A DNA stretch of 64,000 nucleotides from Fimbriimonadaceae bacterium (lineage in GTDB: Bacteria; Armatimonadota; Fimbriimonadia; Fimbriimonadales; Fimbriimonadaceae), in contig JAHCHO010000003.1 in the NCBI GenBank assembly GCA_026129685.1, forward strand, positions 62,001 through 126,000. The letters run 5' to 3'. This document shows positions 43,618-44,689 of this stretch, in pieces; positions within the stretch are counted from its first letter, which is position 1; every line of letters begins with the position of its first letter. Under the pieces are notes generated by a model, which was not told the origin of the DNA, made no database searches, and was given only the letters and a program-made list of their open reading frames with translations. Position numbers and translations under genes: made by a program.

Positions 43618-43623
43618 TATACT
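43618..43623 (+). promoter_or_regulatory. TATACT element before the Cys-rich protein
   Basis: TATACT, then CAAGGC, then a GTG at 43630. The spacing supports the GTG as the real start of the exported Cys-rich protein. Confidence 0.55.
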
Positions 43624-43629
43624 CAAGGC

Positions 43630-44006
43630 GTGGTTTCGTCGCGATGGAAAGCGTTGATCGCTCTAAGTTGCCTTCCGCTTGGGGCGATACTTGTACTCGC
43701 CGCGAACGGAGGCAACTTCGATTCCGGGGGGGGTGTTGTCAGCCGGTAGACGCCTGTTGCTGGAACTGCTACAACCGCGCGCCCGGTCAGTGGGTGAAGC
43801 GTGCGGCAGAGGGTCACCTGATGTATGGCGGCGAATCCGGCTGCTATAGCACCCAGACGGTTTGTGCCGAACTCCGGGTCTACGGCAACTCGCAGTGCAC
43901 GGGGAGCTACACGATCGAGAGCTCCAACAGCCCGCCTCGGTGCGCCGACGCGTCGAACAACGTCTGTCACTACGATCCTGGCACCGACGGGTGTTGCGGC
44001 ACATAA
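43630..44006 (+). CDS. Secreted Cys-rich protein, split by a frameshift at a G8 run
   Basis: From the GTG at 43630 the frame encodes a signal peptide (VVSSRWKALIALSCLPLGAI and LVLAANGG) and NFDSGGGVVSR before a TAG at 43747. In another frame, open across the same place to a TAA at 44004-44006, lies a well-formed mature part: CCQPVDACCWNCYNRAPGQW, then GESGCYSTQTVCAEL, YGNSQCTGSY, CADASNNVCHY and DPGTDGCCGT, with about 12 cysteines. The two join at GGGGGGGG (43726-43733) by a -1 shift or one extra G. The coding half without the signal would have no export route, so a sequencing error, a true mutation or slippage must be involved. Function unknown. Confidence 0.6.
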
Positions 44007-44050: not shown

Positions 44051-44689
44051 ATGGCGATGGTGTTGGCGGGGCCTACGATTCTGGTCGCCTGGAGCTGCAC
44101 GACGGCATGCTTGGCCCCGGACTCCTCACTGGCGTGCCTCTCAAACCTGAAAGCGATCGCAAAGGCGGCAAGTCTTTACGCAGTAGACCACGACGGGTAT
44201 GTGCCGAGCAGCGTCGTCGTTGGGGTGGAATGGCCGTCCGAGGGTCGGTCTATTGCGGGCCGTCCGGAGGAATGGATGCAATCCTTGTTGCCGTACGGCG
44301 GCCTGAAGGAAACCGCCTTCCGATGCCCCGCCTACGATCCAAGCACCATGCCGGCGGTGGGGGTCGGCAACGAGCCGCTCCCGCGCCTTTCCTACCGTCA
44401 GGGCGGGTTCTTGCACCCCTACCCCGGATTCCTGCGCCCATCCCTGAAGCCGAGCGATCTCGTGACGGCAGACCATGCCCTGCGCCTATCCATGGACATG
44501 ATCGAGAATCCGCGCAGCATGGCGTACGCGGAGGACGCCCTGTTTCAAACCGTTCGGAACGGGGCGAAGCGAATGGAGACGAGTCACGGCGGCTACATTG
44601 GCCGCGCGTTTTTCGACGGGCACGTCGCGATGGCGCCAAGACTCGATTCTTATGCAGCCGATCCCGATTGGCGCAAAGGCGGCTCATAG
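44051..44689 (+). CDS. Pilin-head-like protein without prepilin signal
   Basis: A 212-residue protein starting MAMVLAGPTILVAWSCTTAC, a hydrophobic stretch ending in cysteines, not a prepilin leader (no GFTLxE). It then reads SNLKAIAKAASLYAVDHDGY, the same motif as in the prepilin (SNSKQIILAALMYSADYDD), then VEWPSEGRSIAGRPEEWMQS, FRCPAYDPS, and near the end YIGRAFFDGHVAMAP. So it looks like the head of a DUF1559-type pseudopilin with a different N-terminal anchor. It follows the Cys-rich gene by 44 bases and may be in one operon. It overlaps the convergent cyclodeaminase gene by 40 bases. Confidence 0.7.
   Translation: MAMVLAGPTILVAWSCTTACLAPDSSLACLSNLKAIAKAASLYAVDHDGYVPSSVVVGVEWPSEGRSIAGRPEEWMQSLLPYGGLKETAFRCPAYDPSTMPAVGVGNEPLPRLSYRQGGFLHPYPGFLRPSLKPSDLVTADHALRLSMDMIENPRSMAYAEDALFQTVRNGAKRMETSHGGYIGRAFFDGHVAMAPRLDSYAADPDWRKGGS

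Follow-up and report, generated by a model that had tools for sequence, protein, structure and literature searches.

The locus and its two reading frames

The window (the whole stretch of DNA analysed, 64,000 nucleotides, G000:C12:62001-126000, from the 3.94 Mb genome G000 in 18 contigs) contains, at 43618-44006, one gene whose product is a small, exported protein rich in cysteines and which is divided between two reading frames at a run of eight G residues (G8). It is followed by an intact gene for a pseudopilin-like partner. The genome is one of the Armatimonadota (GTDB family Fimbriimonadaceae): an enzyme encoded nearby has its best matches, among named organisms, in Chthonomonas sp. UBA2387 (78%), Chthonomonas sp. 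UBA2362 (71%) and MAG H1_ARM1 (68%). The features of the locus are as follows.

43618..43623, plus strand: -10-like hexamer TATACT, 6 bases 5' of the GTG start, in leaderless geometry
43630..43749, plus strand: frame 1, export signal, with ~32 codons 5' of the run and a stop 16 bases 3' of the run
43726..43733 (G000:C12:105726-105733), plus strand: G8 run at the signal/mature junction, meeting point of both frames
43734..44006, plus strand: frame 2, cysteine-rich mature part with 12 cysteines, open up to its stop
44051..44689, plus strand: H-X9-DG (pseudopilin-like) partner, intact, with the motif identified by eye and homologues in the genomes G001 and G002

The first frame opens with the GTG at 43630 and encodes 39 amino acids (MVSSRWKALIALSCLPLGAILVLAANGGNFDSGGGVVSR) up to the stop codon at 43747-43749; its signal peptide was judged by eye and by likeness in kind to the homologue at L002, described below. 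The cysteine-rich frame extends, in the list of open reading frames, from an ATG at 43644 to the stop at 44004-44006. The initial annotation placed the meeting point of the two frames at 43726-43733, and these coordinates are exact, with the offset of the frames confirmed. The gene would comprise about 125 codons, and the run, at codon ~33, is a homopolymer towards the 5' end of the ORF at which the frames part.

Codon usage was scored with a model trained on the window. On the 5' side of the run, the signal-peptide frame is the best of six by a small margin (-3.5, followed by -6.9 on the other strand and -10.2 on the same strand), and on the 3' side, the cysteine-rich frame is the best of six by a large margin (-2.1 versus -24 for the next one). 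The signal-peptide frame would belong to the gene by virtue of its kind, position and codon use rather than by homology. The gene does not appear to be old wreckage because the 90 codons that follow G8 remain open, with no further stop or shift, and retain the conserved pattern of cysteines.

The promoter that had been proposed 6 bases from the start of the signal peptide is borne out in part: TATACT is found at 43618-43623 but no -35 element accompanies it. A consensus scan of the window gene promoter for a sigma-70-type -35/-10 pair yielded none (0.3 expected), leaving only the -10-like hexamer, and no G tract lies upstream, so that the promoter lacks a spacer tract of the porA type. In 400 kb of G000, TANNNT is most common 6-7 bases before the ATG (16 of 140 starts with an upstream gap of at least 60), and at other offsets it precedes mostly 0-4 of the same 140 starts (7 at nine bases and 5 at 39 bases). 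Given that TANNNT peaks 6-7 bases before the ATG and that TATACT lies at six, a leaderless transcript is plausible for the window gene, and this geometry suggests that the gene at 43618-44006 is probably leaderless.

Relatives of the cysteine-rich protein and of its partner

A homologue of the cysteine-rich part is encoded in G001, a genome of the same genus (E = 1.2e-11; the profile made from the two-row alignment of the homologues gives E = 4.2e-54 and 1.0e-49 for its own two rows). This counterpart (L002:1417-1764) is intact, with the signal peptide and the cysteine-rich part in a single frame, has no G run at the signal/mature junction and is followed by the same partner gene. Together with the codon usage, it supports the original proposal of one exported cysteine-rich protein split at the run. 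The signal peptides of the window gene and L002 are of the same kind, and their sequences do not align (E = 0.83). The comparison with related genomes, which had been suggested as a check and in which an intact relative without the run was to count as a refutation, is not decisive: the intact G001 relative lacks the run at the junction, yet carries a run of ten G just before the same gene. This G10 is located 32 nt 5' of the ATG of the homologue, and the distance from its end to a TATGAT hexamer is 17 nt, so that the run covers the -35 position.

Beyond the genus, no convincing homologue of the cysteine-rich protein was found, the next matches having E-values of 6.8e-4 or worse and mostly containing stops. 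A search of G000 for a paralogue returned only the protein itself, and domain-model searches detected no known domain in it. A phage origin was considered and rejected, with only 32% matches at E = 0.5.

The partner is conserved in both G001 (E = 1.5e-39) and G002 (E = 1.0e-38), with 36% identity over 237 columns in one pairwise comparison, and has two weaker paralogues on contig C15 of G000. In G002, the partner gene is retained with no cysteine-rich gene in front of it, and a synteny check shows that the pair is absent at the locus of the neighbouring enzyme in two named relatives. The partner resembles the prepilin/pseudopilin-like H-X9-DG proteins (TIGR02532, TIGR04294, DUF1559) in its H-X9-DG motif, which was recognized by eye, and a related partner (L126) has a prepilin motif (Pfam N_methyl, E = 3.5e-4). 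Unlike members of these families, the window partner matches no Pfam or NCBIfam model, and the curated cut-offs of TIGR02532, TIGR04294 and PF07596 are not reached. A total of 79 PulG-type genes have been reported in Fimbriimonas ginsengisoli (PMC4072686). A surface or pilus-associated role for the cysteine-rich protein would be a guess from the partner.

Poly-G tracts in the genome and in the family

The G000 genome contains 70 G/C runs of at least eight bases (31 of eight, 9 of nine and 30 of ten or more), and its 30 runs of at least ten bases are the highest count among the 61 genomes compared. According to a crude gene caller, 27 of these 30 are intergenic, whereas a called gene contains 19 of the 31 runs of eight. 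Loss of mismatch repair is ruled out as the cause of the long tracts because G000 has both mutS and mutL domains (MutS_I is found in 59 and MutL_C in 56 of the 61 genomes).

The notion that all long G runs are switches was rejected as well: many are not near genes of the kind found in the window, and some belong to CRISPR-like repeats or contig ends. The runs at 40, 120 and 194 of contig C11 lie within a short repeat at the start of the contig (G000:C11:1-204, L060), where three copies containing C6G11, 74-80 bases apart, have the look of a CRISPR array by eye; the runs near C2:89891, C6:27129-27274 and C12:259429 are likewise CRISPR-like by eye. The contigs C5, C10, C14 and C3 end in or near G runs (a G25 at the end of C5), and G tracts break the G000 assembly or collect artefacts.

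Across the family, poly-G is linked to promoters. The pattern TTGACAN{0,14}GGGGGGGG was searched in 85 genomes of the family, with the reversed pattern as the control. TTGACA followed by poly-G occurs at 37 distinct sites (by our own grouping of overlapping rows) in 21 of the 85 genomes, whereas the reversed pattern turns up at no more than 4 sites, in 3 genomes. Among the 27 distinct sites that were read, 14 show a distance of 16-18 between TTGACA and the end of the run (5.4 expected if the gap were uniform, p = 0.0003), and 13 have TA immediately 3' of the run; an example from G004 is TTGACA-cattgaac-G10-TAGAGT-tgcgcc-ATG. A tract between -35 and -10, as in porA, is thus a feature of other loci in the family. 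This layout of TTGACA, tract, TA-type -10 and start is the one seen in known phase-variable promoters. The excess shrinks beyond the family, with a match in 44 of 206 genomes and a control match in 22. G090, a genome from another family of the same phylum, contains several near-identical TTGACAAATAAGC-polyG sites that differ in run length (C22:4205, C67:10955, C67:15094, C46:109265 and C43:52253) and may form a distinct group of promoters of this type.

The family also links poly-G to exported genes. A tandem duplicate of a cysteine-rich gene plus an H-X9-DG gene lies on the minus strand of G000:C15:196500-202500 (L143); the first copy has a G13 24 nt before the cysteine-rich exported gene, and the second copy has no run. 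In G009, a G16 is located 16 nt 5' of a cysteine-rich exported gene, which is followed by a prepilin-like gene. In G029, a run of eleven C lies in frame at the signal/mature junction of a cysteine-rich gene, with a prepilin-like gene ~0.6 kb downstream; this run closely parallels the in-gene G8 of the window.

In a test that is independent of gene calling, signal-peptide-like ORFs were sought at most 70 nt downstream of runs of at least nine bases, with the antisense direction and random places as the controls; signal peptides were scored by a hydrophobicity rule of our own making rather than by a published predictor. The sample of relatives comprised regions around runs of at least ten bases from 11 relatives, chosen among the matches listed with the genes unseen, and also took in the loci of G001, G002 and G009. 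Among the matches listed, 12 of 67 runs have a signal-peptide-like ORF (6 Cys-rich), compared with 99 of 2520 positions drawn at random from those regions (8 Cys-rich), which gives Fisher p-values of 1.8e-5 for signal-peptide-like ORFs and 6e-7 for Cys-rich ones. The antisense direction of the same 67 runs yields 5 signal-peptide-like ORFs, 1 Cys-rich (sense versus antisense p = 0.059 among the matches listed). The corresponding counts for G000 are 5 of 31 sense, 3 antisense and 60 of 2240 random (p = 0.0016 versus random).

A test based on called genes lent the pattern no support in the relatives, where a signal is present in 2 of 4 neighbouring genes in the sense direction and 3 of 9 in the antisense direction, versus 44 of 176 other genes; the caller used there is crude, was trained on little DNA and called few genes, with no called start within 120 nt of most runs. 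In G000, a signal is found in 5 of 12 called neighbours of runs of at least ten bases, in 3 of 7 for runs of nine and in 0 of 7 for runs of eight, versus 22% of 334.

Further runs in G000 adjoin genes for exported proteins. Three copies of the exported-protein family SAITVALWERDYSDNT have a run in front (C1:153010, C13:472728 and C14:149336; L046, L079 and L082), two with TTGACA-N9-G8-TAGGAA (total 17) and the third with a G10 and a changed -35. At C14:383482 (L084), a G12 lies 12 nt before the start of an exported protein; this ORF has only 78 codons and proteins similar to it next to other runs have about 400-470, so L084 is possibly another broken member.

A candidate contingency gene and its alternatives

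The most likely explanation, to which about an even chance is given, is that the window gene is an exported-protein contingency gene caught in the OFF state, because poly-G is tied, in this lineage, to promoters as well as to exported proteins of the same type, and because the tract lies at the junction between signal and cargo. The gene would fall into a class of exported-protein loci that the family couples to poly-G tracts; the usual place of the tract would be the -35/-10 spacer or the position just before the gene, and in the window it is located within the gene, where signal and mature part join. The length of the tract would change through slipped-strand mispairing during replication, and the signal peptide and the mature part would share a frame only when this length is a multiple of three. 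The assembled G8 would represent the OFF state since its length is not a multiple of three. Under this scheme, the tract would vary within the population and switch expression. Phase variation, which the initial annotation offered by analogy, finds support within the lineage itself: poly-G tracts occur in promoter spacers family-wide and adjoin exported cysteine-rich genes. This context speaks for a switch rather than a plain error. On the other side, the G001 homologue has no tract at the junction, the promoter of the window gene shows neither a G tract nor a -35, the signal-peptide excess over antisense reaches only p = 0.059, and G000 has mismatch repair genes. Overall, the pattern suggests, although it does not prove, that related bacteria turn the production of surface proteins on and off via changes in the length of G runs.

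That the homopolymer was misread or misassembled, the real tract being in frame and the gene intact, is rather unlikely. Runs of G are classic error sites, the four G000 contigs that end in or near long G runs indicate that the assembly struggles there, and the gene looks undamaged on both sides of the run. However, 18 of the 19 called genes with an 8-base run proved to be in frame when read individually, the exception being C17:99239, so that with the window gene added, the 20 genes that contain an 8-base G/C run divide into 18 in frame and 2 broken. The frame-change score detects no shift at any of 13 G/C runs of seven; the shifts called at runs of 4-6 G/C bases (44 of 2112 in C1:1-400000, 4 of 374 in the window) count here as method background rather than real frameshifts. 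Moreover, random errors would be expected to strike housekeeping genes too, whereas both broken genes are of the exported Cys-rich/prepilin kind, although this argument is post hoc. The second broken gene, on the minus strand of G000:C17:97242-101242 (L096, about 1675-2375), is a prepilin/H-X9-DG gene split at a run of eight C (C17:99239), with the prepilin N-terminal methylation motif in one frame (TIGR02532, E = 8.4e-8) and the H-X9-DG end in the other (TIGR04294, E = 0.003).

A real, recently fixed frameshift, such that the gene is on its way to becoming a pseudogene and does not switch back, is unlikely. The gene seems dispensable given that G002 keeps the partner without it, and its lack of detected homologues beyond the genus fits with this, but the absence of any other lesion in the 90 codons after the run, the preserved cysteine pattern and the intact partner argue against decay, and eight Gs is a length that permits easy slippage back. 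Recoding, whereby ribosomal -1 frameshifting or transcriptional slippage would produce the fusion protein from G8, is very improbable: G-GGG-GGG could serve as a slippery run, with -1 as the open frame, but the RNA after the run is no better folded than shuffled sequences (z = +0.98; 166 of 200 fold at least as well) and the single homologue detected encodes both parts in the same frame with no slippery site, so that a programmed -1 slip in translation has neither a stimulatory structure nor a conserved slippery site to its credit.

The contingency-gene reading can be placed next to known systems. Homopolymer phase variation has been described for the host-associated Neisseria, Treponema, Listeria, Campylobacter, Helicobacter and Mycobacterium. 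The reported in-gene tracts include poly-G in Neisseria pilC (PMC5320596) and poly-A in Listeria inlA (PMC2831843), in which, as in the window, the frame of a gene for an exported protein is set by the length of a homopolymer close to its 5' end. Unlike in these cases, the window tract lies at the signal/mature junction, its variation in length is a prediction, and the protein belongs to a family without a database match and comes from an environmental phylum. Among the reported promoter tracts, that of Neisseria fetA lies in the promoter spacer (PMC5320596), the optimum promoter spacing of porA and Treponema tp0126 is 17 (PMC7864442), and the opc tract is located at -35 (PMC7864442). The TTGACA-tract-TA -10 arrangement of the family, with the distance centred on 16-18, resembles porA, fetA and tp0126, and the run over the -35 position of the G001 homologue resembles opc. 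Unlike these promoters, that of the window gene has no tract, and the relatives have ~12 nt between the run and the start codon, a spacing that points to leaderless transcripts.

In the open-access literature, no phase variation in Fimbriimonas or Armatimonadota was found; a search that combined poly-G, promoter, phase variation and leaderless matched only Mycobacterium, and a looser one gave nothing relevant by title. The terms phase variation, homopolymer and frameshift are absent from the main text of the paper on the F. ginsengisoli genome (PMC4072686). Thus, within the open-access literature searched, the family-wide poly-G layout is apparently undescribed: the mechanism is well known, and what is new is the lineage, the class of genes and the leaderless geometry.

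Whether this family of Armatimonadota possesses a poly-G 'phasome', i.e. many leaderless exported-protein genes switched by tracts despite the presence of mutS and mutL, appears evenly balanced. If it does, genomes of this lineage would hold exported genes that only seem broken or promoterless through tract length, and such frameshifts should not be counted as errors without reads. The prominent members of the phasome would be small cysteine-rich proteins paired with pseudopilin-like H-X9-DG proteins, with the tracts in promoter spacers and sometimes, as in the window, within the gene. This would amount to bet-hedging of surface proteins in bacteria with no known host, so that bacteria of an environmental phylum would also hedge on their surface proteins, and the Cys-rich/pseudopilin pairs of unassigned kind would become candidates for the variable surface.
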